Below, one piece after another: positions 3,474 to 54,832 of a DNA stretch of 64,000 bases. The stretch covers positions 1,742,364 to 1,806,363 of the forward strand of contig NZ_CP098747.1 in assembly GCF_023746535.1 (NCBI RefSeq), read 5' to 3'. This DNA is from Sneathiella marina (GTDB taxonomy: Bacteria > Pseudomonadota > Alphaproteobacteria > Sneathiellales > Sneathiellaceae). Made by a program: the position numbers and the translations under genes. Positions within the stretch are counted from its first letter, which is position 1. Each line of letters begins with the position of its first letter. Under the pieces are notes generated by a model. The model saw only the letters and a program-made list of their open reading frames with translations. It was not told the DNA's origin and did no database searches.

Positions 3474-4214
3474 ATGAATATCGCAACGCAATTAGATGTC
3501 AAAAAATCTGAGCCTTTATATATTCAGATCAAGCGGCTGATTGTTGAGAAAATTCAGTCGGGAGCCTGGAAAGCCGGCGATAAAATACCGACAGAGCATG
3601 CATTGGTAAGGGATCTTGATGCATCGCGGATGACTGTTAATCGTGCACTTCGGGAGCTGACACAAGACGGTGTATTGGCGCGGCGGCAAGGCTCGGGCAC
3701 ATTTGTTGCGCCGGCAAAACTTGAAACCGGTTTGTTGGAAATAAAGAATATTGCCGACGAAATCATTTCCCGTGGCAACACACACAGCTCCGAGATACTG
3801 GCACTGGAAACCGTAATTGCGCCAGATGACATTTCAATTGTCATGAGCGGTGCTGCCGGGAATTCTTTTTTCCATTGTGTCCTGCTTCATCGTGAGAACA
3901 ATGAACCGGTTCAACTGGAGGATCGGTATGTAAATCCCGCGCAAGTACCGAATTTCCTGCAGCAGGATTTTGGATCTGAAACACCCAGTGGGTTTTTAAT
4001 CCGGACAGTTCCGTATAGTCGGGCTGATCACCGGATCAGCGCCGAAATCCCGACAGAAGAGCAAAAATCCTTGTTGAGTTTGCGCGAAGGCGAACCAGTC
4101 CTGACGCTAGAACGACATACCTATGCTGGCGACGATGTGATCACCACGGTCCGTCTCTATCATCCGGGAAGCCGGTTCGCATTTGGTGGCGCATTTACCC
4201 CGGATCGACGCTAG
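3474..4214 (+). CDS. hutC: Histidine utilisation repressor HutC (GntR family)
   Basis: DNA-binding repressor of the hut genes that responds to urocanate. The 246-residue protein has an N-terminal winged helix (about residues 10-75, PLYIQIKRLI to RRQGSGTFV), followed by a UTRA ligand-binding domain ending in TTVRLYHPGSR. Length and architecture match HutC. It lies in the hutF transcript, consistent with self-control from the upstream palindrome. Its TAG stop overlaps that of the convergent mttB-like gene within a shared CTAG. Confidence 0.93.
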   Translation: MNIATQLDVKKSEPLYIQIKRLIVEKIQSGAWKAGDKIPTEHALVRDLDASRMTVNRALRELTQDGVLARRQGSGTFVAPAKLETGLLEIKNIADEIISRGNTHSSEILALETVIAPDDISIVMSGAAGNSFFHCVLLHRENNEPVQLEDRYVNPAQVPNFLQQDFGSETPSGFLIRTVPYSRADHRISAEIPTEEQKSLLSLREGEPVLTLERHTYAGDDVITTVRLYHPGSRFAFGGAFTPDRR

Positions 4215-5749
4215 ACGTTCGAATCCGGGAATTCATTTTTCCGCTTCGTCATAAAGGCTTGCAGCGATTCATCGATTCCGGGGTCCAGGGCGGGTGCCTG
4301 ATAGTCGTTTAGCATTTGTTTCCAGATCTCGTTGGCGCGGGTTGCCGCATCCTTGCTTCCATCACTTTGCCATTGTTCGACGGAATTATTATCCGCGATG
4401 CGTGACCGGTAAAAAGCGTCCTCAAAATTGGCTTGTGTATGGGCACAGCCCAGGAAATGGCCGCCCGGGCCAACTTCACGAACGGCATCCATAGCCTGTC
4501 CATTTTCGCTGACATCAATACCCCGCGCCATGACTTCCATCATGGCGCATTGATCGATATCCATGACAAATTTTTCGTAAGACGAACATAATCCGCCTTC
4601 CAGCCAGCCGGCAGAATGCAACGCAAAATTCACACCTGACATAAGAGTCATAAGGAGTGTCTGCGCGCTTTCATAGGCTGCCTGAGCATCCGGCAATTTG
4701 GATGCAGTAAAGGATCCACCAGACCGGAAAGGTAAATTTAGTCGACGTGCGAGCTGGGCAGCACCGTTCAATACCAGGGAACTTTCAGGCGTTCCAAATG
4801 TTGGTGCACCGGACTGCATGGAGATAGAACTTACAAAAGTACCGAATAAAACAGGTGTACCGGGCTTGATTATTTGCGTGAGAGCCGTTCCGGCTAGAGC
4901 TTCAGCCAGCAACTGTGACAGGGTTCCGGCCGGGGAAACAGGGCTCATTGCGCCAGAGAGGATAAAAGGCGAGACAACGCAAGCCTGATTGTTGGCCGCG
5001 TAGGTTCTAAGGGCACCCAGCATTGTCGCATCGAAAGTCATTGGTGAATTTGCATTGATCAGGTTTAGCATGACACAATTATTCTGGACAAAATCCTCAC
5101 CGAAAACCAGAGATGCCATATCGACACTATCTTGCGCCCGTTCAGGGGCTGTAACCGATCCCATAAATGGCTTGTCAGAATATTTGATATGGCTATAGAC
5201 CATATCGAAGTGCCGTTTGTTAACAGGTAAATCCACAGGTTCGCAAACCGTACCGCCGGAATGATGCATAGCGGGCGCCATATAGGCGAGTTTTACGAAA
5301 TTTTCAAAATCTTCAATGGTGCCATACCGCCGACCTTTATCCATATCATGTACAAAGGGAGGACCATAAACTGGTACAAAAACAGTGTTGTTTCCGCCAA
5401 TTTGAACGTTTCGGGCCGGGTTCCTTGCATATTGGGTAAATTCTGAAGGGGCTGTCTTTAACAGCTCGCGGCATAAACCCTTTGGAAAATGGACACGTTC
5501 CCCTTGGACATCTGCACCGGCATCTCTCCAAAGTTGCAGAGATTCCGGATCATCTCGAAAATCGATTCCTATTTCTTCGAGAATGGTATCGGCGTTGGAT
5601 TCAATGATCTCCAGTGCTTCATCACTGGTTAAATTGGAGACCGGAATATTTCTTTTGATATAGGGAATCGTATTCCCAGATTTATTCTGACGCGCTTCCT
5701 TGCGCGCTTCGCGACCACGGCGTCCACCACGGGATCTCGGCTCACTCAT
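4211..5749 (-). CDS. MttB-superfamily (non-pyrrolysine) corrinoid methyltransferase, copy 1
   Basis: Predicted to move a methyl group from a quaternary amine to the cob(I)alamin of a partner corrinoid protein. Non-pyrrolysine members with known substrates include MtgB (glycine betaine), MtpB (proline betaine) and MtcB (carnitine). The substrate here cannot be read from sequence. The 512-residue protein spans the whole TIM-barrel family and has no in-frame UAG, so no pyrrolysine is used. The first 25 residues are arginine-rich (RSRGGRRGREARKEAR), outside the barrel. It is divergent from the DMGDH-like gene at 6032 and next to the corrinoid protein, methyl-THF transferase and RACo genes. A second copy lies at 49194. 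Confidence 0.9.
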   Translation of the reverse strand: MSEPRSRGGRRGREARKEARQNKSGNTIPYIKRNIPVSNLTSDEALEIIESNADTILEEIGIDFRDDPESLQLWRDAGADVQGERVHFPKGLCRELLKTAPSEFTQYARNPARNVQIGGNNTVFVPVYGPPFVHDMDKGRRYGTIEDFENFVKLAYMAPAMHHSGGTVCEPVDLPVNKRHFDMVYSHIKYSDKPFMGSVTAPERAQDSVDMASLVFGEDFVQNNCVMLNLINANSPMTFDATMLGALRTYAANNQACVVSPFILSGAMSPVSPAGTLSQLLAEALAGTALTQIIKPGTPVLFGTFVSSISMQSGAPTFGTPESSLVLNGAAQLARRLNLPFRSGGSFTASKLPDAQAAYESAQTLLMTLMSGVNFALHSAGWLEGGLCSSYEKFVMDIDQCAMMEVMARGIDVSENGQAMDAVREVGPGGHFLGCAHTQANFEDAFYRSRIADNNSVEQWQSDGSKDAATRANEIWKQMLNDYQAPALDPGIDESLQAFMTKRKNEFPDSNV

Positions 5750-6031
5750 AATTTATCTCCAGCTTTCATGAGGTAACAGATAACAAACTGTCTTTGATAT
5801 TATTAAAAACAATTCTTGGGCGGAGACTAGCGCAATGGCGTCTTTTTCCGCTGATTGTCTGGCGATTATAGAACAATTTTGACGGGAGGCGGATAGTGGG
5901 AATTGACATGGCGGGAAAGGAACAGCGAGCGTCGCAGCGTCGTTAGCAGGAAACGGCTGCAATCGTCACGGTATTTTCAGAATGAATGAAGCAGAGCAAC
6001 CGGCGTTGGTAAACGCTTAAGGGACAGAACA

Positions 6032-8470
6032 ATGAAATCACATGCACGGGTCGTTGTCATTGGCGGAGGCGTCGTCGGCGTCAGTACACTTTACCATCTG
6101 ACAAAAAAAGGATGGAGCGACGTTGTTCTTTTGGAGCGTACCGAGCTTACAGCGGGATCCACGTGGCATGCCGCAGGCTTGCTGCCGCTCTTTAATATGA
6201 GCTATGCGGTTGGTAAAATCCATAAATACAGTGTTGATTTGTACAAGCAACTGGAAGCCGAGACCGGTCAAAATGTTAGTTTTCATGTAACCGGTAATTT
6301 ACGCCTTGCGACGAATAAAGAACGCATGGACGAATATATGAAATATTGCGGAACTGCGAATACAATTGGCGTTCCTTATGAAATCATCACCCCGCAACAG
6401 GTCAAGGAGCTTTGGCCCTTAAGTGAAACGGACGGACTGGTTGGCGCCCTTTATCATCCGGACGACGGGCATATTGCGCCGGTTGACGTCACTAACGCTA
6501 TGGCAATCGGAGCGAGAAACGGCGGCGCCGAAATTTATCGGCAAACTGAAGTCCTGTCCATCGAACAACAACGAAATGGTGAATGGCTGATCAGAACCAG
6601 CAAGGGCGATATCACAGCGGAGCATGTTGTGAGCTGTACAGGCAATTATGCACGCCAGACGTTATCCATGGTTGGACTTGATATTCCGGTAATTCCGGTT
6701 GAACACCAATATATTGTCACCGATGAAGTTCCCGAACTGGTCGAACGGAAGAAACAAGGTCTTCCGGAAATGGCCGTTCTTCGGGAAAGCGATGCGTCCT
6801 ATTATCTTCGCGAAGAACGTCAGGGATATATTCTTGGCCCGTACGAAAAAGGGGCGCCTGCCTGTTTTGTTGACGGTGTGCCCGATACCTTTGGCCAGGA
6901 CCTGTTTCCAGGAGATCTGGAACGTTTAATGCCGCATGTCGAAGCCGCAATTGCGCGTGTCCCCACATTTGCCGACGCGGGGATCAAGGATATCGTCAAT
7001 GGCCCAATTGCGTATACGCCAGATGGAAGCCCGATGATTGGTCCCGCATGGGGACTGAAGAACTTCTGGATGAATGAAGGCCATAGTTTTGGCGTGACTG
7101 CGGCGGGTGGTTCCGGATGGCAATTGGCGGAATGGATAACCGAAGGCGAGCCGGGAATTGACATGATGGATGTTGATCCACGCCGTTTTGGTGCCTATGC
7201 AACGAAACCCTACACAAAGATTAAGAATGAAGAATGCTACGAGCATGTCTTTGTGATCCATTATCCGGATGAAGAACGCGGCGCTGGGCGTCCGTTGAAA
7301 ATGAGCCCATGCCACGACCGTATGGCCGCACGCGGTGCCGTCTTCGGTCAGCGTTATGGCTGGGAACGCCCAAACTGGTTTGCACCGGAAGGTGTAGAAC
7401 CCAAAGACGTCTGGAGTTTTCGGCGCACAAACTACTTCGAGCATGTCGGAAATGAAGTCAAAAATATGAGGGAAAACGCCGGCCTCATAGATATAACAAG
7501 CTTTTCCAAATTTCAGGTAAGCGGGCCAGGCGCAGAAGCCTATCTCGATCGACTTGTATGCCGGAAATTACCGAAAGGGATCGGTCGGATTAATCTTAGT
7601 CATGCGCTGAATAAAAATGGTGGGGTTCGTTCCGAATTTACAATCATGCGCGATGGGCCGGAGGAATTCTATCTGGTCAGCTCCGGCGCGGCAGAACGGT
7701 TTGATCATGACTATCTATTCAAAAACTTGCCGGATGACGGTTCGGTTCGGTTGGACAATGTAACGACGGCACATGGTGTCTTGGTCTTGGCCGGTCCGCG
7801 AGCACGGGACATATTATCAAAAATAACAGATGCTGATTTGTCCAATGACGGTTTTAAATGGTTGACTGGTCAGCATATTACAGTTGGTTTGGCGCCGTGC
7901 CGGGCGTTACGGGTCAATTTTGTCGGCGACCTGGGGTGGGAACTGCATCATCCGATCGAATATCAAAACCATATTTACGACGCAATCGTCGCAGCTGGAG
8001 AAGAGTTCGGGCTGTCAATGTGCGGAATGCGGGCAATGGATAGCCTGAGGATGGAGAAAAACTACCGGATGTGGGGGCAGGACCTGACCAGCGAATACAC
8101 GGTTTTCGAAGCTGGCCTGGAAAAATTTGTTCACATGGACAAAGGGGATTTCGTTGGCCGTGATGCCTTGATCGCGCAGAAGGAGGCCGGTGTTCCGCAA
8201 TCATTTGTCTGCCTTGACGTGTTGGGAATAAAAGATGCGGATCCGATGGGAAATGAGCCGTTATATGATCTTGACGGAAATATTGTTGGCCGGGCAACTG
8301 CCGGTGCATATGGGCACTGGGTTGGAAAGAGCTTGGCCCAAGGCTATATAAAAGCAGGGCTAGAGACAATTGGGACGGAGCTGGAAATCGAGATCCTCGG
8401 GGAAAGATACAAAACAGTGGTGATAGAAGAATCTGTTTTTGATCCTGAAAATACTCGCCTTAGATCCTGA
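6032..8470 (+). CDS. Dimethylglycine/sarcosine dehydrogenase-like FAD + GcvT protein, copy 1
   Basis: Predicted to oxidise an N-methyl group of a dimethyl- or monomethyl-amine and pass the C1 unit to THF as methylene-THF. The 812-residue protein has an N-terminal Rossmann motif (GGGVVG, residues 11-16). GSTWHAAG follows, whose His 46 matches the histidine that carries covalent FAD in mammalian DMGDH. The FAD oxidoreductase domain runs to about residue 390, then a short central domain, then GcvT aminomethyltransferase N- and C-domains (about 430-800). It starts the rightward corrinoid gene set. Because mttB copy 1 is divergent across 282 bp, the pair probably acts on successive methyls of one compound. 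The exact substrate is unknown. Confidence 0.88.
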   Translation: MKSHARVVVIGGGVVGVSTLYHLTKKGWSDVVLLERTELTAGSTWHAAGLLPLFNMSYAVGKIHKYSVDLYKQLEAETGQNVSFHVTGNLRLATNKERMDEYMKYCGTANTIGVPYEIITPQQVKELWPLSETDGLVGALYHPDDGHIAPVDVTNAMAIGARNGGAEIYRQTEVLSIEQQRNGEWLIRTSKGDITAEHVVSCTGNYARQTLSMVGLDIPVIPVEHQYIVTDEVPELVERKKQGLPEMAVLRESDASYYLREERQGYILGPYEKGAPACFVDGVPDTFGQDLFPGDLERLMPHVEAAIARVPTFADAGIKDIVNGPIAYTPDGSPMIGPAWGLKNFWMNEGHSFGVTAAGGSGWQLAEWITEGEPGIDMMDVDPRRFGAYATKPYTKIKNEECYEHVFVIHYPDEERGAGRPLKMSPCHDRMAARGAVFGQRYGWERPNWFAPEGVEPKDVWSFRRTNYFEHVGNEVKNMRENAGLIDITSFSKFQVSGPGAEAYLDRLVCRKLPKGIGRINLSHALNKNGGVRSEFTIMRDGPEEFYLVSSGAAERFDHDYLFKNLPDDGSVRLDNVTTAHGVLVLAGPRARDILSKITDADLSNDGFKWLTGQHITVGLAPCRALRVNFVGDLGWELHHPIEYQNHIYDAIVAAGEEFGLSMCGMRAMDSLRMEKNYRMWGQDLTSEYTVFEAGLEKFVHMDKGDFVGRDALIAQKEAGVPQSFVCLDVLGIKDADPMGNEPLYDLDGNIVGRATAGAYGHWVGKSLAQGYIKAGLETIGTELEIEILGERYKTVVIEESVFDPENTRLRS

Positions 8471-8612
8471 AATTGAACAGAAACCAGTGTTTTTGGAAGT
8501 GCGTGTCGCTGAAAAATTATTCGATGTCTGAGGCAGGATAGTTTTTTAGCACATGTTGCCTGAATATTTTGAAAAGAAACCGGTAATTTGACCAACTCTG
8601 TGGAGCCATAAA

Positions 8613-9299
8613 ATGGACGAAGAAGAAATTGATCTCTCTGCGTTAGATGATTCTGAGCTTGTTGAGCAGATGCATGATGATCTCTATGACGGTTTGGCCG
8701 ACGAGATTTGTGAAGGCGTCAATATTCTTCTGGGGCGGGGTTGGGAACCCTATAGAGTACTGACAGAAGCTCTGGTTGAAGGCATGCGGATTGTCGGTAT
8801 TGATTTTCGTGACGGAATCTTATTCGTGCCGGAAGTACTTTTGGCGGCAAATTCCATGAAGTCTGGAATGGCTATCCTGAAGCCCTTGCTCGCAGAAACA
8901 GGGGCGCCGAAGGCGGGAAAAATGGTTATCGGCACCGTGAAAGGTGATATTCACGATATTGGTAAGAATCTCGTCATCATGATGATGGAGGGAGCCGGAT
9001 TTGAAGTAATCGACTTGGGAATTAACAATCCGGTCGAAAACTATATTGCCGCTTTGGAAGAGCATGAGCCAGATATTATAGGGATGTCCGCGCTTCTCAC
9101 GACAACCATGCCCTATATGAAAGTTGTCATAGATACCATGAAAGAGAAGGGCATTCGCGATGACTTCATTGTTATGGTTGGCGGAGCTCCGCTCAATGAA
9201 GAATTTGCTGATAGCGTCGGTGCCGATGCGTATGGCCGGGATGCCGCGATGACCGTTGAAATTGCCCAGCGGATGGTCGCAGAGCGTCGGGCGGCCTGA
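8613..9299 (+). CDS. Cobalamin-binding corrinoid methyl-carrier protein (MtgC/MttC-like)
   Basis: Shuttles methyl groups between the MttB-type enzyme and the methyl-THF transferase on a bound corrinoid. The 228-residue protein has an N-terminal helical cap domain (about residues 10-95). The Rossmann-like B12 domain contains DIHDIG at 112-117, where His 114 should be the lower cobalt ligand, and a later GGAPL motif. Size and order match MtgC, MttC and MtbC. It is the only free-standing corrinoid carrier seen in the window, so it may serve both MttB copies. The next gene starts 27 bp downstream. Confidence 0.95.
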   Translation: MDEEEIDLSALDDSELVEQMHDDLYDGLADEICEGVNILLGRGWEPYRVLTEALVEGMRIVGIDFRDGILFVPEVLLAANSMKSGMAILKPLLAETGAPKAGKMVIGTVKGDIHDIGKNLVIMMMEGAGFEVIDLGINNPVENYIAALEEHEPDIIGMSALLTTTMPYMKVVIDTMKEKGIRDDFIVMVGGAPLNEEFADSVGADAYGRDAAMTVEIAQRMVAERRAA

Positions 9300-9326
9300 C
9301 AAAAAAAATCAGGGAAAGGCTGTGAT

Positions 9327-9926
9327 ATGGAGCATTCTCACCCAAAAACCCTCTTGATAGCCTGCGGTGCCTTGGCGGAAGAAACCTTGGCGGTTCTCGA
9401 TGAGAAGAAATGGCAACATATAGAGATTACATGCTTGCCAGCGAAACTCCATAATTCCCCGACTTTGATACCAGAGGCAATGCGGCAGAAAATTCGAGAG
9501 AACAAGACGGAATTCGATCAGATACTAGCTCTTTACGGTGACTGCGGAACAGGCGGTTTGCTGGATAATGTTTTACGCGAGGAAGGGGTGGAGCGGATAT
9601 CCGGGGCACATTGCTATGAATTTTTTGCAAGCTCTGAGGTGTTCAAACAGTATGCGGAGGCAGAACCTGGAACTTTCTATTTAACCGACTATCTTGCCCG
9701 GCATTTTGATCGATTGATAATCAGGGATCTTGGAATAGATCGGCATCCTGAATTGCTTCCCTTGTATTTCGGTAATTACAAGAAAGTCTTGTATTTATCG
9801 CAAACGGAGAATGTTGAATTGCAGGCGAAAGCAAAAGCGGCCGCCGAGAAACTTTCTTTAGAATACGAGTATCGGTTTACAGGGTTGAGCGGGCTAGAGA
9901 ACTTTCTTGAAGATAAGGTGGGATAA
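9327..9926 (+). CDS. DUF1638 protein in the corrinoid cluster
   Basis: Member of DUF1638 (PF07796), whose biochemical role is not established. The 199-residue soluble protein has conserved-looking Cys/His patches: CGAL (Cys 13), CLPAKLHN (Cys 36, His 42), YGDCGTGG (Cys 73) and GAHCYEFF (His 95, Cys 96). These could bind a metal or a corrinoid, but that is a guess. It lies between the corrinoid protein and the PF13769 gene with gaps under 30 bp, so it should be co-transcribed and work in methyl transfer or corrinoid handling. Confidence 0.8.
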   Translation: MEHSHPKTLLIACGALAEETLAVLDEKKWQHIEITCLPAKLHNSPTLIPEAMRQKIRENKTEFDQILALYGDCGTGGLLDNVLREEGVERISGAHCYEFFASSEVFKQYAEAEPGTFYLTDYLARHFDRLIIRDLGIDRHPELLPLYFGNYKKVLYLSQTENVELQAKAKAAAEKLSLEYEYRFTGLSGLENFLEDKVG

Positions 9927-9932
9927 CAAAGA

Positions 9933-10238
9933 GTGGCGCAACTGAGTATTTTATACTGGCGGGACATTCCGTCACAAGTCGTGGTGAAGCAAGGCCGGAA
10001 GAACGCCAAAGTATTGCTTTCCGAACGGTTTCAGGTTGCCATTGATATGGCGGCGATGCGTGATGGATCCCATGAAACGGATGCATATCTTGAGGGGTGG
10101 CGAAAAGGGACCGCTGAACCAGTAGACGGGGATATGCAAGAAGCCGCGGATACTGCCGCAAATGCGATTGAATCCAGTTATGATAAGGATGTAGTTAAGC
10201 GGCTGGTGGCCAATGGCGGACGGGAAACAGATGCCTAA
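9933..10238 (+). CDS. PF13769-type small protein ('virulence factor' family)
   Basis: A 101-residue soluble protein starting at a GTG 6 bp after the previous stop. It resembles the family labelled 'virulence factor' (PF13769), a name that says little about function. Visible features are an N-terminal ILYWRDIPSQV segment, a basic KQGRKNAKV patch and a helical acidic second half. It has no signal peptide and no cysteines. Its end overlaps the MetV-like gene by 8 bp (ATGCCTAA), which ties it tightly to the reductase. A role as accessory subunit of the MTHFR or methyltransferase complex is an inference. Confidence 0.7.
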   Translation: MAQLSILYWRDIPSQVVVKQGRKNAKVLLSERFQVAIDMAAMRDGSHETDAYLEGWRKGTAEPVDGDMQEAADTAANAIESSYDKDVVKRLVANGGRETDA

Positions 10239-10782
10239 AACAGCTTATCAGCCATCCCATACAAGTCCGGTTGTTCGCTCCCGCGCATTATTTACTATCA
10301 GGCTCTGGTCAGTTCGTCATTCCCGCGGATTGGAACGTATTTACAAATTGCTCGCGAAAATTTTCTTGAAACTGCATCCTTTTTGGTCGTGGGTAGGGTA
10401 CAAAAGGGCGGAAAAACCGGTTGTATTCGTTGAAAAAGCCGTGAAAGGACTGTTGTTTGACTGTCGTATGTGCGGACAATGCGCCCTTAGTGACACGGGT
10501 ATGTCCTGTCCGATGAATTGCCCTAAATCCTTGCGAAATGGCCCTTGCGGCGGCGTCAGGGCCAACGGAAATTGCGAAGTGGAACCGGATATGCCTTGCG
10601 TCTGGGTTGAGGCATGGAAAGGCAGTCGGAACATGAAAGAAGGCGATCAAATTCTAAAAGTCCAGGAGCCGGTCAATCATTCATACCGCGGAACGTCTTC
10701 GTGGCTGCGCGTTACTGCGGAAGATGCTGCACGGTTGAAAAAAGAAAAAGAAACTCTGACAGCCGCCAGGAATACACAATGA
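10231..10782 (+). CDS. MetV-like cysteine-rich MTHFR partner (MTHFR C-terminal domain protein)
   Basis: Resembles MetV, the zinc/Cys-rich subunit that pairs with MetF in acetogen methylenetetrahydrofolate reductases. The 183-residue protein has eight cysteines at about residues 78, 81, 84, 93, 97, 106, 115 and 123 (LLFDCRMCGQC, SCPMNCPK, GPCGG). The start at 10231 is preferred because it gives the same ATGCCTAA stop/start overlap as the RACo gene; an in-frame ATG at 10213 also exists. It overlaps metF by ATGA, so the two subunits are probably made in equal amounts. It may allow an electron partner other than NADH. Confidence 0.82.
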   Translation: MPKTAYQPSHTSPVVRSRALFTIRLWSVRHSRGLERIYKLLAKIFLKLHPFWSWVGYKRAEKPVVFVEKAVKGLLFDCRMCGQCALSDTGMSCPMNCPKSLRNGPCGGVRANGNCEVEPDMPCVWVEAWKGSRNMKEGDQILKVQEPVNHSYRGTSSWLRVTAEDAARLKKEKETLTAARNTQ

Positions 10783-11870
10783 CTCAAAATCCTTTAGCCG
10801 ATGAGGGAGAGCCGCTTCCAGCGCAGCCGGGTCATTCGTCACGTGGCCGGCTCGAAAGAGTGTTACGTGCCGGTGAATTTGCTGTGACTGCAGAGTTAAA
10901 TCCGCCCGATAGCGCAGATCCAAACGAAGTATTTGAGCGCGGTGCAATTTTTGATGGCTGGGTTGACGGGATTAACGCCACCGATGGCTCAGGCGCAAAC
11001 TGCCATATGTCATCGGTCAGCATATGCGCCTTGCTAACACGTGTCGGGTATTCTCCGATAATGCAGATATCCTGTCGTGATCATAACCGCATTGCAATCC
11101 AGGGAAATGTCCTGGGAGCTGCAGCGATGGGGGTAAATAACATACTTTGCTTAACCGGCGATGGGGTTCAGGCGGGCGATCAACCCGGCGCCAAGCCGGT
11201 ATTCGATCTTGACTGCATGTCTTTACTCAGGACCATAAAACAAATGCGGGATGACGGGCGGTTTCTTTCGGGTCGAAAAATTACGGCGCCGCCGCAGGTG
11301 TTTCTGGGTGCCGCCATAAATCCTTTTGCACCGCCATATGAATTTCGCGCCCTTCGCCTGGCCAAGAAAATTGAGGCGGGTGCACAATTCGTTCAATCAC
11401 AATATTGTTTCGATATCCCGATGCTTGAGAAATATATGGAACAGGTTCGTGACCAGGGGCTAGATGAAAAATGTTTTATCCTAATTGGCGTCGGTCCGTT
11501 GGCCTCGGCGAAGGCCGCTAAATGGATCCGGTCAAATGTTCCGGGAATCCATATACCTGATAGCATCGTCGAACGTCTCGAAGGCGCTGAAAACCAAAAG
11601 CTTGAAGGTAAGAAAATCTGCATCGAGATGCTCCAACAAGTGCATGAGATGAAAGGCGTTTCCGGGGCTCACGTGATGGCGTATCGGCAAGAGGAACTAG
11701 TTGCAGATATTGTTTATGAAGCAGGTGTCTTAAAGGGCCGTAAACCCTGGAAACGTGAAATGAACCCCGATTTCGAAGCCGTTTCAGATGCCGTGGAAAC
11801 GGTGAAGGAACAATTTGATATATCAATTGATCCGCAAGAAGCAGTTGCTGCCGCTTCTGAGGAAGTCTAA
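10779..11870 (+). CDS. metF: Methylenetetrahydrofolate reductase (MetF-like) of the corrinoid cluster
   Basis: Flavin-dependent interconversion of 5-methyl-THF and 5,10-methylene-THF. In this setting the oxidative direction, from methyl-THF made by the corrinoid system, is likely. The 363-residue protein shows the MTHFR barrel motifs: TAELNPP with the catalytic-type Glu, NATDGSG, ISCRDHNR and LCLTGDG. The ATG at 10779 overlaps the metV stop as ATGA, so the longer in-frame extension upstream is not used. Its C-terminal extension (about residues 320-363) is acidic and alanine-rich. A separate biosynthetic MetF may exist outside the window. Confidence 0.9.
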   Translation: MTQNPLADEGEPLPAQPGHSSRGRLERVLRAGEFAVTAELNPPDSADPNEVFERGAIFDGWVDGINATDGSGANCHMSSVSICALLTRVGYSPIMQISCRDHNRIAIQGNVLGAAAMGVNNILCLTGDGVQAGDQPGAKPVFDLDCMSLLRTIKQMRDDGRFLSGRKITAPPQVFLGAAINPFAPPYEFRALRLAKKIEAGAQFVQSQYCFDIPMLEKYMEQVRDQGLDEKCFILIGVGPLASAKAAKWIRSNVPGIHIPDSIVERLEGAENQKLEGKKICIEMLQQVHEMKGVSGAHVMAYRQEELVADIVYEAGVLKGRKPWKREMNPDFEAVSDAVETVKEQFDISIDPQEAVAAASEEV

Positions 11871-11961
11871 GTCGGTAATGGAAAAGATTTCGGGCAGCTT
11901 AAGCCTTTAATGGACAAAGTGTAACAACGGGCGTGGCCCCTTAATTTCAAGGCTATTTTGC

Positions 11962-12867
11962 ATGACTGATACAATCATTTCCTCAGCTACTAAAGAAGTT
12001 GTTATTGGCTTCGACCGTCCTTTTGTCATTATCGGTGAGCGGATAAATCCCACGGGGAGGAAACTTCTCGCTGCTGAAATGAAAATTGGGGATTACAGCC
12101 GGGTGGAATCTGATGCACTGGCCCAAGTTGCTGCGGGTGCCCAGATGTTGGATGTCAATGCCGGTATTCCGCTTGCCGATGAACCCCGTATCCTCGCCGA
12201 AGCAATCCAACTTGTTCAAAGCCTGACAGATGCTCCTTTATCTATCGACAGCTCGATTGTTGAAGCATTGGAATCCGGGTTGGCCGTGTACAAGGGAAAA
12301 GCCCTAGTCAATTCCGTTACCGGGGAGGAAGACCGGCTGGAAACGGTTCTACCACTGGTAAAGAAGCATGGTGCGGCGGTTGTTGCAATTTCAAACGACG
12401 AAACCGGCATATCCGAAGATCCCGACGTTCGTTTTGCGGTTGCCAAGAAAATTGTCGAGCGGGCACAGGACTATGGAATATCTCCAGCAGATGTTGTTGT
12501 CGATCCTCTAGTGATGCCTGTCGGAGCTATCAATGACGCGGGTCGTCAGGTATTGACGCTTATCAATCGCCTTCGCACGGAGCTTAAAGTTAACACCACA
12601 TGCGGTGCATCAAACTTCAGTTTCGGATTGCCCAATCGCCACGGAATGAACGCAGCATTTCTATCAATGGCAATCGGGGCCGGAATGACATCAGCTATTA
12701 CCAACCCATTACATGAACCGGAAATGGCAGCGATAAAAGGCGCGAATGTGGTGATGGGCCGCGATCCAAATTGTGTTAGCTGGATCAAGACTTTCCGGGA
12801 GCCTGCAGCTGAGGGAAGTGTGGAAATGGGCCGCAGAGGGAACCGTCGACGGAGACGCAATGCCTAA
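11962..12867 (+). CDS. Methyltetrahydrofolate:corrinoid methyltransferase (MtgA/AcsE-like)
   Basis: Transfers the methyl group between the methyl-corrinoid protein and tetrahydrofolate. The 301-residue protein has the dihydropteroate-synthase-like barrel of MtgA, AcsE and the MetH folate domain. Motifs are IIGERINPTGRK near residue 23, DVNAGIP, SIDSS, NSVTGE and the NTTCGASNFSFGLPNR segment. The last 14 residues are a run of arginines (GRRGNRRRRRNA) not expected in the family fold. It overlaps the RACo gene by ATGCCTAA. Because it accepts the methyl as methyl-THF, metF and metV next door make metabolic sense. Confidence 0.9.
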   Translation: MTDTIISSATKEVVIGFDRPFVIIGERINPTGRKLLAAEMKIGDYSRVESDALAQVAAGAQMLDVNAGIPLADEPRILAEAIQLVQSLTDAPLSIDSSIVEALESGLAVYKGKALVNSVTGEEDRLETVLPLVKKHGAAVVAISNDETGISEDPDVRFAVAKKIVERAQDYGISPADVVVDPLVMPVGAINDAGRQVLTLINRLRTELKVNTTCGASNFSFGLPNRHGMNAAFLSMAIGAGMTSAITNPLHEPEMAAIKGANVVMGRDPNCVSWIKTFREPAAEGSVEMGRRGNRRRRRNA

Positions 12868-14896
12868 TCATTTGTTTGAAAAGGAAAAGCTGCATCTCGT
12901 TGTTTTTACACCCTCTGGTAAACGGGGACGGTTTGCCGAAGGAACACCGGTTCTGGAGGCCGCTCGCATTCTCGGCGTTGATATTGATAGCGTCTGTGGT
13001 GGAAGAGGGATCTGCGGTAGGTGTCAGGTAAATCTCACTGTTGGCGAGTTTGCGAAACATGGAGTTGTTAGCCGGGAGACTTCTTTGTCTCCCTTCGCCG
13101 TTGGTGAAGAAAAATTCAAGGCGAGGAGAGGGCTTGCCGACGGGCGTCGGTTAAGTTGCCATGCGCAGTTAATGGGCGATGTCATTATCGATGTTCCCCC
13201 ATCTAGCCAGGTCCATCGCCAGGTCATCGTAAAGAAAGCGGATGATCGTAAAATTGAGATGGATCCAGCGATCCGATTGCATTTCGTACAAGTCCAAGAA
13301 CCGGATATGCACAATCCAACAGGCGATTTTGAACGATTGGAGTTAGCGCTCAATCAACAATGGGGACTGACCGAACTGGAATGTGACTTGCGAACGTTGC
13401 AAGCGCTCCAAAAAAACCTTCGCGAGGGGAATTGGAATGTAACAGTTTCGGTTCACCGTAATAAACGTATAACAAAAATATGGCCCGGCTTTCACAACAG
13501 GGCCTATGGATTGGCTGTGGATGTCGGATCAACGACCATCGCCATGCATCTGTGCGACCTTTCCAGCGGTGAGGTCGTCGCGTCATCGGGAATGATGAAT
13601 CCGCAAATTCGGTATGGCGAAGACTTGATGAGCCGTGTGTCGTACATCATGATGAATCCTGGTGGGGATAAATTATTAACGGAAGCAGTACGGCAAGGCA
13701 TAAATGAGCTCATAGGTGAAGTGACGGAACTGGCCGGTATCAATCCGACTGACATCTTGAACGCTGTTTTCGTAGGTAATCCGATTATGCATCATCTTTT
13801 GTTGGGTATCGATCCAACGGAACTTGGTGGTGCTCCGTTTGCCTTAACAACGAACAGCAGCATGACGATTTGGGCCAGTGAACTTGGGCTTACCTCCAAT
13901 CCCGATGGCAGGGTGTATTTTTTACCCTGTATTGCCGGCCATGTGGGTGCAGATACAGCTGCGGTTATACTTTCCGAAGCGCCTCATTTACAGCGACAGG
14001 TTACTCTTATCGTCGACGTTGGGACCAATGCGGAAATTGTCGTTGGGAATAGTGACCGTCTCTTGGCTGCGTCTTCGCCAACAGGACCTGCGTTTGAAGG
14101 TGCGCAGATATCCTGTGGCCAACGGGCGGCAGCCGGGGCCATAGAGCGGGTCCGGATTGACCCCGAAACGCTTGAACCTAGATTTAAGGTGATTGGCAGC
14201 GATTTGTGGTCGGATGAAGAGGGATTTGACGAGGAAACCGCCAAATCCGGGATAACCGGTATTTGTGGTTCCGGGATAATCGAAGTTGTCGCTGAAATGT
14301 ATTTAAGCGGAATATTGAGCGTTGACGGGGTTATAGACGGGTCGCTCGCAGCAAAAAGCCCGCGTATTGTCGCTGATGGCCGGACTTTTTCCTATGTCAT
14401 ACGTGATGGCGAAAGCGAGCTGAAAATCTATCAAACAGATGTTCGGGCTATTCAGCTTGCCAAAGCCGCTTTATATGCTGGTGCTAAATTGCTTATGGAC
14501 AAATTTGGCGTCGATTCTGTTGATCGGATTCTGTTGACCGGTGCATTCGGAAGCCATATTGATACGAAATATGCGATGGTTTTGGGAATGATTCCCGATT
14601 GTAATCTGAAGAATGTTCATGGCGTCGGAAATGCAGCCGGAGTTGGCGCGCGTATTGCGTTGCTTAATAACAAATCGCGAACAGAAATAGAAGAAGTGGT
14701 CAAAACGGTAGAGAAAATTGAAACGGCTGTGGAACCAAAATTCCAGGATTATTTTGTAGATGCAATGGCGATTCCTCACAAAACCGCTTCCTATCCAAAT
14801 TTATCGAAGACCGTAAAATTTCCGGACCCGAAAATTATTTCCGCAAACGAGCTTTCCGGCTCAGGCGGGCGTCGCAGACGTCGTCGCCTCAAGTAA
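12860..14896 (+). CDS. RACo-type reductive activator of corrinoid proteins (2Fe-2S + ASKHA)
   Basis: ATP-driven reductase that returns accidentally oxidised Co(II) corrinoid to the active Co(I) state. The 678-residue protein has an N-terminal plant-type 2Fe-2S domain with Cys 46, 52, 55 and 100 (CGGRGICGRC, then LSCHA). A linker follows, then the ASKHA ATPase with DVGSTTIAMH, VDVGTNAEIVV and GICGSGIIEVV. The ATG at 12860 is chosen for its 8-bp overlap with the methyltransferase gene. The C-terminus ends in an arginine run (GGRRRRRRLK). Its presence supports a working low-potential corrinoid cycle in an organism that otherwise looks aerobic. Confidence 0.93.
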   Translation: MPNHLFEKEKLHLVVFTPSGKRGRFAEGTPVLEAARILGVDIDSVCGGRGICGRCQVNLTVGEFAKHGVVSRETSLSPFAVGEEKFKARRGLADGRRLSCHAQLMGDVIIDVPPSSQVHRQVIVKKADDRKIEMDPAIRLHFVQVQEPDMHNPTGDFERLELALNQQWGLTELECDLRTLQALQKNLREGNWNVTVSVHRNKRITKIWPGFHNRAYGLAVDVGSTTIAMHLCDLSSGEVVASSGMMNPQIRYGEDLMSRVSYIMMNPGGDKLLTEAVRQGINELIGEVTELAGINPTDILNAVFVGNPIMHHLLLGIDPTELGGAPFALTTNSSMTIWASELGLTSNPDGRVYFLPCIAGHVGADTAAVILSEAPHLQRQVTLIVDVGTNAEIVVGNSDRLLAASSPTGPAFEGAQISCGQRAAAGAIERVRIDPETLEPRFKVIGSDLWSDEEGFDEETAKSGITGICGSGIIEVVAEMYLSGILSVDGVIDGSLAAKSPRIVADGRTFSYVIRDGESELKIYQTDVRAIQLAKAALYAGAKLLMDKFGVDSVDRILLTGAFGSHIDTKYAMVLGMIPDCNLKNVHGVGNAAGVGARIALLNNKSRTEIEEVVKTVEKIETAVEPKFQDYFVDAMAIPHKTASYPNLSKTVKFPDPKIISANELSGSGGRRRRRRLK

Positions 14897-14898
14897 AT

Positions 14899-15957
14899 CT
14901 AATGCCGGGTACGCCGTTCTTCACTTGGTGTCCGGCCAAAATGCTCTCGGTGACATTTGGAAAAATGCGATGCGGAAACGAAACCGCACGCAAGCGCCAC
15001 TTCGATTATTGGCAAACTGGTTTGGGTGAGGAGATATCTTGCCCGATCAAGCCGTAGTCCGAGATAATATCGGGTTGGAGAATGCTCCAGATATTTTTGA
15101 AATAGCCGTTCCAGCTGACGAGTTGATAAGCCGACTTCCGTAGCCAGATCACTACAACTCAACGGCTCTTCAAGGTTATCCTCCATGCAAGCGATTGCGC
15201 CCAGTAGCTTTGGATGCGAAATACCAAGGCGTGCTCGCAATTCCATGCGCTGTCGCTCTGAACTTTCACGAATTCGGTGATAGATTAATTGATCTGCGAT
15301 TGATACGGACAATTCGTGACTTGTGTGGCTGGACACAAGACTCAACATCATGTCCAATGACGCGGTGCCGCCTGCGCAGGTATAGCGGTTACGGTCAATT
15401 TCAAAAAGCTCGGATGTGATGTCCAGTTCAGGAAATTCTTCCCGGAATCCGGAAAGGTTTTCCCAGTGAATAGTACAGCGATGATCGTTTATCAGGCCGG
15501 CTTTAGCCAAAACATATGTTGCGGTACAAATTGCACCTAGTTCCGAGCCATGTGATGCCATCCGGCGAAGGGCAGCAATAAGTTGCGGACTTGTATGATT
15601 TCGAATATTTATACCGCTACACGTAAAAACGATGGGTAAAGCGGGCATTTCCGATATTTTACCTTGTACCGAGAATTCGATACCGGCGCTGCTTTTTGCT
15701 GGTTTTCCGTCTATGGAATAACAGTCCCAGCTATAAATCTTCTCATTTGAAAGCTGGTTGGCAAGCCGCAGGGTATCAACGGCCGAGATAAAGGCAATAG
15801 CTGAAAATTCCGGTACGAGGCAGAAGCCAAGTCTGTATTTCGCCGATGCGCCGGTAGAAGGTGTTTCCAAATGTATCGTATCCAAAAAAGTAAAATAGAA
15901 CCCGTCTTCTTCGAACGCTACTTTAGAACGGGGAAAAAACAAACAGAATCTTGCCAT
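14899..15957 (-). CDS. GlxA/GbdR-like AraC-family regulator
   Basis: Transcription factor with an N-terminal DJ-1/PfpI-like amidotransferase-fold sensor (about residues 40-210) and a C-terminal AraC double helix-turn-helix (about 250-350). Visible signatures are GAICTATYVLAKAGL, CTIHWENL and CAGGTASLDMML in the sensor, and LERLFQKYLEHSP plus ACGFVSASHFSK in the DNA-binding part. It resembles GbdR, which activates glycine betaine and dimethylglycine catabolism in Pseudomonas, and its place between the corrinoid genes and sarcosine oxidase fits that role. The roughly 40-residue N-terminal extension is longer than usual, so the true start may be internal. Confidence 0.85.
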   Translation of the reverse strand: MARFCLFFPRSKVAFEEDGFYFTFLDTIHLETPSTGASAKYRLGFCLVPEFSAIAFISAVDTLRLANQLSNEKIYSWDCYSIDGKPAKSSAGIEFSVQGKISEMPALPIVFTCSGINIRNHTSPQLIAALRRMASHGSELGAICTATYVLAKAGLINDHRCTIHWENLSGFREEFPELDITSELFEIDRNRYTCAGGTASLDMMLSLVSSHTSHELSVSIADQLIYHRIRESSERQRMELRARLGISHPKLLGAIACMEDNLEEPLSCSDLATEVGLSTRQLERLFQKYLEHSPTRYYLGLRLDRARYLLTQTSLPIIEVALACGFVSASHFSKCHREHFGRTPSEERRTRH

Positions 15958-16019: not shown

Positions 16020-17714
16020 TTAGAACAAACCGATAATTTCGCCTTCGTCATTTATATCAATTGAATTTGCGGCAGGAACGCGGGGTAGACCAGGCATGGT
16101 CATGATGTCACCGCAAACGGCTACGACAAATTCTGCTCCGCCTGCAACTCGGATCTCCCGGATAGGGACAACATGATTGCTAGGCGCTCCTTTCAGATTC
16201 GGATCAGTGGAGAAACTATATTGTGTTTTTGCGATGCAAACCGGATAATGGCCAAATCCACCCTCCTGCAATTCCTTAAACTGGTTGCGCACCTTTTGAT
16301 CCGCGATGATGCCCTGTGCGCCGTATAGCGTTTGCGCTACTGTACGAACTTTGTCCCACAACGGTAGCGCGTCATTATACAAAGGTGCATAGTTGCTACC
16401 ATTTTTATCTATGATGGCGGCAACGGATTGCGCCAGATCTTCTGCGCCAGCACCACCATTTCCCCAATGATCAGATTCGATGGCATCCACGCCAAGCTCT
16501 GCACAAACCTGCCGTACCTGGTTTACTTCATCTTCAGTATCTGCTGAAAATTTGTTTATGGCCACGATAACTGGCAAACCGAATTTTTTAAGGTTCTCAA
16601 CATGGCGCGAAAGGTTTTCTCCTCCTTCGGCTACAGCTTTGACATTTTCAGTTCCGAGATCACCCTTGGCAACGCCCCCATGCATTTTCAATGCACGAAT
16701 TGTTGCAACAACAACGGCGACTTCTGGTTTCAAGCCAGCTTTACGGCATTTTATGTCGAGGAACTTCTCAGCTCCAAGATCAGCTCCAAACCCGGCTTCC
16801 GTCACAACATAGTCGGCTAATTTCAAGGCAGTTTTTGTGGCGAGCACGGAATTGCACCCATGGGCGATATTCGCAAATGGCCCGCCGTGAATGAATGCTG
16901 GGTTGTTTTCCAGGGTTTGAACGAGGTTGGGTTGGAAAGCATCTTTCAACAAAACTGTCATTGCGCCATGCGCATCAATGTCTTTTGCATAGACGGGAGA
17001 TTTTTCTCGGGTATAGCCAACAATAATGTTTCCCAAACGGCGTTTGAGATCGTCGATGTCAGTGGCAAGGCAGAAAATCGCCATTACTTCCGACGCGACT
17101 GTGATGTCAAAATGGTCTTCTCGGGGGAAGCCATCGGATATACCGCCCAGGCTATTGACGATATTACGCAGAGCCCGGTCATTCATATCAACAACCCGAC
17201 GCCAAATTATCCGCCTCTCATCCAAGCCGAGTTGATTGCCCCAATAAATATGGTTATCGACCATGGCGGCAAGAAGATTATTAGCGACGCCAATCGCATG
17301 GAAATCACCTGTAAAATGGAGATTGATGTCCGTCATCGGAACAACCTGAGCATACCCGCCGCCTGCAGCGCCGCCTTTCATTCCAAAACAGGGACCAAGC
17401 GACGGCTCTCGCAGACATATCATAGTCTTTTTTCCAATGCGATTGAGCGCGTCACCGAGGCCAACAGTTGTTGTTGTCTTGCCTTCACCCGCCGGTGTCG
17501 GCGTCATAGCTGTGACAAGGATCAATTTGCCATCTGGCTTGTCGGCAAGCGTCTTGATGTAATCCAACGAGAGTTTGGCTTTATAATGCCCGTATGGCTC
17601 GAGTTTATCAGAATCAATACCGAGGCTGTTTTCCGCAACATCGACAATTCGTTTCATGGAGGCGGCTTGCGCAATTTCAATATCACTTTTCGGGTGAGCA
17701 TGTTGGTCGGTCAT
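16020..17714 (-). CDS. fhs: Formate-tetrahydrofolate ligase Fhs
   Basis: ATP-dependent formation of 10-formyl-THF from formate and THF, reversible to recover ATP when C1 units are oxidised. The ATG at 17714 gives 564 residues, the normal length; an upstream TTG extension lacks a ribosome site. Motifs include [18 protein letters not shown] (P-loop-like) near residue 70, [19 protein letters not shown] and FATDIDDLK-like elements. It sits between the corrinoid cluster and sarcosine oxidase, completing the folate C1 branch except for FolD, which is not in the window. A terminator follows it. Confidence 0.96.
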
Positions 17715-18065
17715 TGCTATGTATCTTTCTGTTAATGGTCCGGATTTATTTACCAGACCCTCCAAAATTAGTATGCAAGATAGGTTGTGCCATACGCCCT
17801 GCAGCCGTCACAGTGACGGCATCAGTATTAACTAGCTATTCATGAAGCGACATAATTTTCTTTCCAAGCGGTCAAGTAGGTTTGCCGCTCTGCAATTTTC
17901 TGTGAAGACATTTACAGGAAGATTGAGGGAAAAGAAGAATGTCGGTTATATCGCAGTAAATGACTATTTCGGACATTTTTGCTCAGTGCTAAGATGTCAG
18001 AGTCAGCTTCACTCAGCGTCGTTTATGCGGCGTCTTTAACTCGGGCGGAATAAGGGCAATTCTAC
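17715..18065. other. fhs-soxB divergent intergenic region
   Basis: A 351-bp gap between the divergent fhs and soxB starts. Apart from the palindrome at 17804-17820 no gene, riboswitch or repeat could be supported. A 65-codon plus-strand frame at 17842 has no family resemblance and a poor start context. The region should hold the promoters for both directions. Confidence 0.5.
17804..17820. promoter_or_regulatory. Perfect GCCGTCAC-A-GTGACGGC inverted repeat
   Basis: An exact 8-bp inverted repeat around a single A, 90 bp upstream of the fhs start and about 245 bp upstream of soxB. It has the shape of a dimeric regulator site. The GbdR-like protein nearby is a candidate binder, but AraC proteins often prefer direct repeats, so the partner is unknown. 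Confidence 0.45.
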
Positions 18066-19313
18066 GTGAAATATTCCATTTTTTCCATCGCACGAAATGC
18101 ATTATCACACCATAAGAACTGGCCGGAGCAGTGGCGAAGTCCAGAACCCAAAACTGACTATGATGTGATTATCATAGGCGGTGGGGGCCATGGGCTGGCC
18201 ACAGCATATTATCTTGCAAAAGAGCACGGAATTACAAATGTTGCTGTTCTGGAAAAAGGCTGGCTTGGTGGAGGGAATACAGCTCGCAACACGACAATTG
18301 TCCGCTCCAACTATTTATGGGACGAGAGCGCGGCGATTTATGAAAAATCCCTACAGCTTTGGGAAGGGCTATCCCAAGACATAAATTACAATGTAATGCT
18401 GAGTCAGCGCGGTGTTCTAAACCTGGCACATAACCTTGGCGATGTTCGAGAAGGTGTTCGCCGGGTTAATGCAAATCGGCTTAATGGTGTTGATGCAGAA
18501 TGGTTAGATGCAGACGGGGTCAAAGATTTTTGTCCGATCATCAATATTTCGAAAGATACCCGGCATCCGGTACTGGGCGCAACTTTACAACGTCGTGGCG
18601 GTGTCGCCCGACATGACAGTGTTGCCTGGGGATATGCGAGAGCTGCGGACGCGTGCGGCGTTGATATAATTCAGAATTGCGAGGTCACAGGTATAAAGCG
18701 AGAGGGTGACAAAGTCGTCGGTGTTGAAACAACTCGCGGATATATCGGGGCGAAGAAAGTTGCTGTTGTCGCAGCTGGTCATAGTTCCGTTGTTGCCAAT
18801 ATGGCAGGCTTGCGGCTTCCAGTTGAAAGCCACCCTTTGCAAGCCTTGGTTTCCGAGCCCATCAAGCCTGTCATAGACTGCGTTGTCATGTCCGGGGCAG
18901 TTCATGTCTATGTGAGTCAATCGGACAAAGGTGAATTGGTGATGGGGGCCGGTGTGGATAGTTTTAACTCCTATGGTCAGCGCGGCAGTTTTCACGTCAT
19001 AGAACATCAACTAGGGGCCTGCCTCGAACTCTTTCCGGTTTTCAGCCGGGTGCGCATGATGCGAACATGGGGCGGGATTGTCGATGTTTGTCCCGATGCC
19101 TCGCCTATTATCTCCAAGACATCTGTTGACGGCCTGTATTTCAATTGTGGATGGGGCACAGGCGGGTTTAAGGCAACACCGGGCTCCGGGTGGGCATTTG
19201 CACATACCGTTGCGAAAGATGAGCCACATCGGCTAAATGCGCCCTTCGCGCTCGGTCGGTTTGAAACGGGTGCACTTATTGATGAACATGGCGCAGCAGC
19301 TGTTGCACATTAA
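18066..19313 (+). CDS. soxB: Heterotetrameric sarcosine oxidase beta subunit SoxB
   Basis: Oxidises sarcosine at non-covalent FAD and hands electrons to covalent FMN for reaction with oxygen. The 415-residue protein begins at a GTG. It carries the Rossmann motif [15 protein letters not shown] (about residues 36-50) and [13 protein letters not shown], whose His 183 fits the covalent-FMN histidine of known tetrameric enzymes. [16 protein letters not shown] segment near the end is typical of the D-amino-acid-oxidase-like fold. It is first in the soxBDAG operon, with soxD 9 bp later. Together with the upstream demethylases it would finish demethylation of glycine betaine to glycine. Confidence 0.95.
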
Positions 19314-19322
19314 AGGGAAGAA

Positions 19323-19625
19323 TTGATGTTGAATATTGACTGCCCCTGGTGCGGCAAAAGACATGAAACTGAATTTCATTATGGCGGGGAAGCCCATATA
19401 GCGCGGCCAGAGAATCCAGAGGCGCTTTCTGACGAGGATTGGGCGGATTTCTTATTTATGCGGAAGAACACAAAAGGCTTGTTCCAGGAAAGATGGTGCC
19501 ATAGCAACGGATGCCGACGTTGGTTCAATGTCCTGCGCAACACGATTAGCCATGAAATTGTTGCCATTTATAAAATGGGCGAAACCCCTCCTGAAATCTC
19601 CTCAAAAGCAGGAAAAAGCTTATGA
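19323..19625 (+). CDS. soxD: Sarcosine oxidase delta subunit SoxD
   Basis: The small zinc-containing subunit of heterotetrameric sarcosine oxidase, 100 residues. It has the expected CPWCGKR cysteine pair near the N-terminus and the distal WCHSNGCRRWFNVLRNT motif, which together bind zinc. Its role is structural. It overlaps soxA by 4 bp (ATGA), so the two are translationally coupled. Confidence 0.95.
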   Translation: MMLNIDCPWCGKRHETEFHYGGEAHIARPENPEALSDEDWADFLFMRKNTKGLFQERWCHSNGCRRWFNVLRNTISHEIVAIYKMGETPPEISSKAGKSL

Positions 19626-38818: not shown

Positions 38819-38824
38819 CAGAGA

Positions 38825-50741: not shown

Positions 50742-50764
50742 AGCTTTCTCCCAAAAAAAATATT

Positions 50765-53182: not shown

Positions 53183-53202
53183 ATTTTTCCCTTTCAGATT
53201 AT

Positions 53203-54507: not shown

Positions 54508-54832
54508 CACCCGTTGCTCCCTTAATTCCCGAGCTGAATACAGCAAAATATTTCACCGCTTCTGCAGCCGTTGCAAGTTTAAAAAAGCGCAAAAGCATTA
54601 TTGTTTGCGAATAATTAATTTTGTGTCGTTACCGTATAAAAGCGGGTCGTCGACGGGAAAATTTCTGAAGGAGAAAACGGAGCCGCAAGACGCCTGAACG
54701 GTTATTTTGGCATATTCCGCGGTGAGTCGTTTCTGAGATAAAGAAATCCACGAATATTCCCCATACACAACTATAGGTATTTGTTGTATCGTCCGCTTGA
54801 CTAAAATAAATACTATTTTATGGAAGTTTGTC
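54508..54832. other. Divergent intergenic region between FAD oxidase and glucosaminidase
   Basis: A 325-bp gap separating the leftward mttB copy-2 operon from the rightward glucosaminidase gene. It should hold both promoters. No convincing gene, hairpin or known regulatory motif was found. Confidence 0.4.

Follow-up and report, generated by a model that had tools for sequence, protein, structure and literature searches.

Gene content of the locus

This report concerns a module of genes for corrinoid-dependent methyl transfer, and the arginine-rich ends of its proteins, in a stretch of 64,000 nucleotides (the window) from the genome of Sneathiella marina, which consists of one contig of 4.07 Mb and is 99.8% complete. 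From left to right, the module contains genes for MttB1 (reverse strand), a DAO-GcvT fusion, the corrinoid protein MtgC, a DUF1638 protein, a PF13769 protein, MetV, MetF2, MtgD and the activator RACo, which is followed on the right flank by a GbdR-like regulator, formate-tetrahydrofolate (THF) ligase and soxBDAG. The nearest public matches of MtgD were from Sneathiella genomes and metagenome-assembled genomes (MAGs), with identities of 91–97%. The features of the module are:

4211..5749, reverse strand: MttB1, pyrrolysine-free quaternary-amine:corrinoid methyltransferase of the MttB/MtgB type (PF06253, 793 bits)
5675..5749, reverse strand: Arg-rich N-terminus of MttB1 (residues 1–25, net charge +6)
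6032..8470, forward strand: DAO-GcvT fusion (PF01266, PF16350, PF01571, PF08669), dimethylglycine-dehydrogenase-like as regards its putative substrate
8613..9299, forward strand: corrinoid protein MtgC (PF02607 and PF02310)
8613..8687, forward strand: acidic N-terminus of MtgC (residues 1–25, net charge -11)
9327..9926, forward strand: DUF1638 protein (PF07796)
9933..10239, forward strand: small PF13769 protein between DUF1638 and MetV ("Virulence_fact" being a family label only)
10213..10782, forward strand: MetV, cysteine-rich partner of MetF (PF12225)
10779..11870, forward strand: MetF2, methylene-THF reductase (PF02219)
11962..12867, forward strand: MtgD, methyl-THF:corrinoid methyltransferase of the MtgA type (PF00809; NCBIfam PRK07535, 367 bits, cut-off 259)
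12811..12864, forward strand: Arg-rich C-terminal tail of MtgD (residues 284–301), predicted to be disordered (predicted local distance difference test, pLDDT, < 50)
12860..14896, forward strand: RACo/RamA-like corrinoid reductive activator (Fer2 and three RACo domains)
14849..14893, forward strand: Arg-rich C-terminal tail of RACo (last 15 residues)

An earlier note on this DNA, made without database searches, had placed MttB, a corrinoid protein, an MtgA-like transferase, RACo and MetV/MetF together, and all of these were recovered there as open frames with matching domains. The DAO-GcvT oxidase, DUF1638 and the PF13769 protein, which lie inside the cluster, were missing from its list. The starts of MetF2 at 10779 and of RACo at 12860 are probable, since the former forms an ATGA overlap with MetV and the latter overlaps the stop of MtgD.

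In PDB searches MttB1 matched 4YYC (E 4e-241), MtgB 2QNE (E 6e-131) and 9YCE, a "glycine betaine methyltransferase" (E 1.6e-130); it is 70% identical to the MttB of S. meliloti, which is found in the same gene order. Pyrrolysine-type MttB was looked for, and no in-frame amber or other stop codon was present inside any of the three MttB copies of the genome; the model for pyrrolysine trimethylamine (TMA) MttB, TIGR02369, gave 284 bits against a cut-off of 525. MtgC has a predicted fold with a mean pLDDT of 88 and carries GDIHDIG at residues 111–117, invariant in 38 aligned sequences (picked from 60 for a sensible start); this is the DxHxxG motif, which we take to provide the cobalt ligand. In RACo the 2Fe-2S, linker, middle and ASKHA domains are all present; it scored 414 bits with NCBIfam AcsV, under the cut-off of 800, and matched the PDB structure of RACo, 3ZYY, with E 1.8e-93. 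Mutant fitness data from Phaeobacter connect DUF1638 with the reactivation of corrinoids (PMC5764234); a literature search for its function gave no usable result. S. meliloti and Azoarcus have the small PF13769 protein at this position, too.

The constituents of aerobic MtgBCD systems were found: an MtgC with cap, B12 domain and DxHxxG, a PF06253 and a PF00809 protein, RACo/RamA and DUF1638. A stand-alone PF02574 protein of the MtgE/Bmt type, as in split methionine synthases, is encoded far from the module (C1:484478-485503; 342 amino acids, 51–61% identical to its best relatives class-wide), and a further stand-alone PF02574 protein is present in the genome. Most aerobic MtgBCD members lack MetH; S. 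marina has a complete, five-domain MetH, including the activation domain, whose gene adjoins its own canonical metF about 25 kb before the window (L206:400-5070), so that the genome carries classical and split systems together.

Occurrence and gene order

Co-occurrence was surveyed in 241 alphaproteobacterial genomes (at least 90% completeness requested), where MtgC was counted at 72% identity or higher, and gene order in 80 loci related to the S. marina MtgD; the two samples share some genomes and are therefore not independent. MtgC was detected in 49 of the 241 genomes, all of which also possess a matching RACo and a PF06253 (MttB) protein. Outside these 49, RACo was present in one genome (G147) and PF06253 in four (G006, G062, G147, G209), with only partial matches in G006, G062 and G209. 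MtgE was found in 41 genomes, 40 of them with MtgC. When MetH was called as PF02607 in a long frame, at least 22 of the 49 MtgC genomes had it among the matches listed, down to E about 6e-18; on this basis, 27 genomes had MtgE only, 9 MetH only, 13 both and none neither. Since these genomes, and some in the published survey, contain MetH, its absence is not a defining property of aerobic MtgBCD systems. In 199 genomes of one Rhodobacterales-type family (around G018), MtgC and Bmt were both present in 186 and both absent in 10, with 3 discordant cases (Fisher test, 3e-14). Co-occurrence agrees with a corrinoid hub which serves betaine demethylation and methionine synthesis alike.

MtgD and RACo were adjacent in 69 of the 70 related loci having both, MetF and MtgD in 53 of 53, and MtgC and DUF1638 in 59 of 60; such nearly fixed adjacencies indicate that the arrangement is not due to chance. 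MttB1 and DAO-GcvT, neighbours in 14 of the 24 loci having both, are commonly but not invariably linked. Two loci labelled Mycobacterium sp. KBS0706 and Flavobacteriaceae (L027, L049) contained an MtgD with 80–82% identity; the labels are probably wrong, or the MAG is mixed.

Arginine-rich ends

MtgD of S. marina ends with GRRGNRRRRRNA, RACo with GGRRRRRRLK and the distant MtgE with GRRTSRRRRK, and all three MttB proteins start with Arg-rich stretches. A threshold of at least five Arg in the last 20 residues, which was set, as were the others, after the tails had been seen, was passed by 73 of 79 MtgD and 65 of 67 RACo proteins from the related loci, compared with 52 of 536 other open reading frames (ORFs), a background which includes many spurious antisense frames. 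Other products of these loci rarely or never passed (DUF1638 0/70, DAO-GcvT 0/26, Fhs 0/13, MtgC 1/60, MetV 1/53, MetF 2/56), apart from GbdR with 9/39. In the stretches from the class sample the tail was present in 48 of 50 RACo, 38 of 40 MtgD and 35 of 41 MtgE rows, and in the Rhodobacterales-type family 49 of 50 fetched Bmt proteins (30 best matches and 20 chosen ones) carried it. Arg-rich ends were found also in S. meliloti, Paracoccus methylovorus, Azoarcus, SAR324 and one Trueperaceae MAG, and tails were kept, with mixed Arg codons, in a genome with 34% guanine plus cytosine (GC) across the fetched stretches.

In the six MtgD and two RACo misses from the related loci the Arg/Lys cluster is still there, followed in MtgD by a Gly/Ala stretch. 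The two RACo misses among the 50 are a cluster with an extension behind it (L107) and a frame broken in draft sequence (L140). Among the MtgE misses, L157 and L192 have four Arg in a shorter or displaced cluster, L189 lies at a contig end, one is a piece of a gene broken in two (L193), and L188 and L191 have no cluster. The Bmt proteins of Paracoccus denitrificans, P. ferrooxidans and P. pantotrophus (L095, L266, L267; 3 of 5 Paracoccus matches) have no tail; possibly this is a Bmt that acts independently of MtgC.

Some alphaproteobacteria have a divergent RACo. This protein, with about 30% identity and encoded beside a corrinoid protein of about 50% identity, carried the tail in none of seven cases (L147–L153); in five genomes with this RACo (G107, G192, G066, G189, G156) PF06253 was unmatched. 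Related RACo proteins of the aerobic Halomicrococcus and Gemmatirosa and of the anaerobic Acetoanaerobium had no Arg tail either; thus, aerobic life as such does not depend on the tail. In the haloarchaeon Halomicrococcus (L269), the genes of RACo, of DUF1638 and of a corrinoid and an MtrH-like protein are clustered; in Gemmatirosa (L271; Gemmatimonadota), a gene for a stand-alone MtgE-like protein lies near those of RACo and a corrinoid protein. Arg tails are missing from all of these proteins.

For MttB, 38 of 40 paralogues encoded away from the cluster were rich in Arg/Lys at the N-terminus (at least six in a 20-residue window ahead of the conserved core). Under the N-terminal threshold applied to the related loci, 38 of 40 MttB proteins passed, and they stand out from the background by degree (mean 6.8 versus 3.5). 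Within S. marina, 412 ORFs were sampled from 18 evenly spaced 20-kb stretches, two chosen stretches and the window. RRRR within the last 20 residues occurred in three of them, two being MtgD and RACo; a stricter N-terminal threshold was passed by nine, including MttB1 and MttB2, while MttB3 fell below it.

MtgC, on the other side, has a whole-protein net charge of -25. Its first 25 residues are at net -8 or lower in all 38 aligned sequences, and only 2 of the 412 S. marina ORFs had an equally acidic N-terminus. MtgD (-4), RACo (-9) and MttB1 (-15) are themselves net acidic, so that the Arg tails form local positive patches.

Interpretation and alternatives

The module very probably belongs to the aerobic MtgBCD systems. 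Cob(I)alamin on MtgC would be methylated by MttB1 from a quaternary amine, for which glycine betaine is the likeliest candidate, and MtgD would pass the methyl group on to THF; methyl-THF could then be oxidised by MetV/MetF2 to methylene-THF, and the one-carbon (C1) unit to formate by Fhs and related enzymes. The dimethylated product would be degraded onward by the DAO-GcvT oxidase and SoxBDAG. RACo, aided by DUF1638, should re-reduce cob(II)alamin which arises from oxidation of the cofactor. Methionine could be obtained by running MtgD backwards and feeding MtgE, or this step may be bypassed by the complete MetH. Domain content, the conserved order in the 80 loci and in S. meliloti, the joint occurrence of the genes in the genome surveys, the tails, and the adjoining GbdR-like regulator and sarcosine oxidase count for this assignment.

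A need for MtgC and MtgD would be expected by analogy with the genetics of relatives. Mutants of Ruegeria pomeroyi DSS-3 in mtgC and mtgD are reported not to grow on glycine betaine, even with methionine, and to be methionine auxotrophs (PMC12478193, PNAS, September 2025). The same report describes that N-osmolytes raise MtgB-type proteins, RamA, DUF1638 and MetF2, the latter being the most induced, and that in further marine bacteria these genes frequently lie together; its authors proposed the oxidation of methyl-THF to methylene-THF, from which the oxidative direction of MetF2 in S. marina is inferred. The quaternary-amine route to methylene-THF which the earlier note had put forward is supported by these genetics, although it left out the methionine half; as it coincides with the published aerobic model, it is not new. 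Solely anaerobic use of the module is ruled out by aerobic relatives with published aerobic phenotypes.

For the Arg-rich ends we propose that they may be electrostatic docking tags for MtgC, which would replace the covalent linkers of MetH. MttB, MtgD, RACo and MtgE would be docked by these short disordered ends, meeting the acidic N-terminus of MtgC, and the local concentration of the partners around MtgC would be raised. In the MttB-MttC complex the catalytic MttB subunit is described as barely touching MttC, which is held by a loop of the dimer partner and by the cofactor (PMC9842639); such scant contact leaves room for an added tether. A wider formulation, to which we give slightly less than an even chance, is that split corrinoid methyltransferases of Proteobacteria (and of some SAR324 and a Trueperaceae MAG) share a code of disordered Arg ends on MttB paralogues, MtgD, RACo and MtgE, which dock on an acidic hub, so that one MtgC could be served in turn by several donors, acceptors and the reactivase, and new MttB substrates could be plugged in by the tag.

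Several points weigh against these views. Glycine betaine as the main substrate of MttB1 is inferred from similarity, and the complete MetH makes a methionine role of the module unnecessary in S. marina. The Bmt of Phaeobacter inhibens is reported to use betaine directly in vitro, free of corrinoid (FEBS J 2025, PMC12366255). N-terminal Arg richness is common (background 145/536, MetV 24/53, MetF 17/56, MtgD 13/79), which makes the MttB signal the weaker one. Finally, seven divergent corrinoid proteins whose RACo partner is tail-less have N-termini of net -4 to -8; an acidic N-terminus is therefore not special to the tailed system, and the notion that it is unique there is weakened.

The module might instead be mainly a split methionine synthase, with the MttB proteins as side inputs, and both the tailed MtgE-like protein and the requirement of P. 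inhibens for homologues of MtgC, MtgD, RACo and DUF1638 in methionine synthesis (PMC5764234) would fit this. It is nevertheless improbable, as the genome has the complete MetH with activation domain and own metF, MtgE is distant while MttB, MetVF, DAO-GcvT and SoxBDAG adjoin, and the 9 of 49 MtgC genomes with MetH and without MtgE (matches listed) still keep MttB and RACo; a pure methionine synthase was rated low on account of the complete MetH. If the chemistry is that of MtgBCD, the substrate of MttB1 (or of MttB2 or MttB3) could still be proline betaine, carnitine, choline or another betaine. This we regard as unlikely, though with a substantial share of the chances: the three MttB proteins are only 37–49% identical pairwise and each adjoins its own DAO-GcvT fusion, the module of Paracoccus methylovorus lies near carnitine genes, and Eubacterium MttB members with such substrates are named in PMC12478193; MttB1, however, is far nearer to MtgB than to TMA MttB (E 9e-42), and its close S. 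meliloti counterpart and the GbdR-like regulator speak for glycine betaine.

Arg-rich tails bind nucleic acids in many proteins. Accordingly, the ends could serve in binding of RNA, DNA or membranes, or in stability, instead of docking on MtgC, a possibility with somewhat under even odds, which gains from the acidic N-termini in the untailed system and loses by the restriction of C-terminal tails to MtgC partners (see the counts for DUF1638, DAO-GcvT, Fhs, MetF and MetV) and by their presence on MtgE genes far from the cluster. That the tails are a mere by-product of GC-rich DNA is hardly credible; most of the sampled genomes are GC-rich and a part of the background ORFs does pass the C-terminal threshold, but the tails persist at 34% GC with mixed codons, RRRR ends are rare in S. 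marina, and the divergent RACo proteins are tail-less in GC-rich stretches.

Neighbouring genes and MttB paralogues

Further features in the window, and one locus outside it, are:

14899..15957, reverse strand: GbdR-like AraC-family regulator (NCBIfam GbdR, 387 bits, under the cut-off of 480)
16020..17765, reverse strand: formate-THF ligase (Fhs), C1 oxidation (PF01268)
18066..23195, forward strand: sarcosine oxidase soxB, soxD, soxA and soxG, all four present
49194..50741, reverse strand: MttB2, 41% identical to MttB1
50667..50741, reverse strand: Arg-rich N-terminus of MttB2
50765..53182, reverse strand: second DAO-GcvT fusion, adjoining MttB2
53203..54546, reverse strand: DAO-family amine oxidoreductase beside the MttB2 cluster
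L216:12098-16118 (G000:C1 about 1297097-1301117): MttB3 and the third DAO-GcvT fusion (L216:13653-16118)

Among oxygen-using neighbours the earlier note had named sarcosine oxidase, which is complete, and PaaABCDE, of which two PaaA_PaaC proteins and a PaaE-like reductase were identified in the window. At 37979-39934 there are an esterase-family and a zinc alcohol dehydrogenase gene which resemble, by Pfam only, S-formylglutathione hydrolase and glutathione-dependent formaldehyde dehydrogenase and would thus fit C1 oxidation.

The simplest reading of the pairs of MttB and oxidase is that a betaine is first demethylated by MttB and then once more by the oxidase, which hands this second methyl group to THF. 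The region 49194-54546 is likely to be a second betaine-demethylation island with another substrate; a literature search for substrates of MttB2 and MttB3 found nothing.

Significance of the tails

The Arg-rich ends weigh more than the module itself, the latter being already published. They offer a testable answer to the question how a methionine synthase which is split into separate proteins, and which also accepts methyl groups from several betaines, holds its components near one another around a single B12 carrier. If docking is true, the tag should mark new partners of the system and explain the addition of MttB paralogues; moreover, in vitro assays may fail when tailed ends are His-tagged or trimmed, a point of relevance to the dispute whether Bmt/MtgE acts alone (PMC12366255) or with MtgC (PMC12478193). 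No mention of Arg tails was found in literature searches among the matches listed, with subscription journals and bioRxiv outside their scope, nor by term look-ups in the main text of PMC12478193 and the available text of PMC12366255; papers combining "corrinoid" and "arginine-rich" contained none on Arg tails, as judged by title.

Comparison with known systems

The closest known counterpart is MtgBCD(E) of R. pomeroyi DSS-3 as described in PMC12478193, which has the same MttB-type MtgB, corrinoid MtgC, MtgD, RamA-like activator, DUF1638 and MetF2, is likewise aerobic, and has MtgE elsewhere in the genome. Unlike there, the S. marina module is clustered with MetV, DAO-GcvT, the GbdR-like regulator, Fhs and SoxBDAG, and a complete MetH is present, which is a minority case in that survey (28 of 239 metH genomes). 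In P. inhibens, the split methionine synthase comprises the same pterin, corrinoid, RamA-like and DUF1638 proteins; methionine was the role tested in the work reported, in an organism described without MetH, whereas S. marina has MetH. RACo/RamA-like activators in aerobes were published with it in 2018 (PMC5764234). The anaerobe Desulfitobacterium hafniense carries out the same three reactions with its MtgABC (PDB 2QNE), as cited in PMC12478193. MetH has the same pterin, B12 and homocysteine modules in one chain, with its own activation domain.

NCBIfam MtgC models align to the S. marina MtgC only from residue 14–15, under the cut-off. Solved MtgA-like chains have an end overhang of about 9 residues or fewer versus 21 in MtgD, and RACo 3ZYY one of 8 versus 36 in the S. 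marina RACo. As a whole, the module is of a published kind, to which S. marina adds a genus and a fuller cluster.

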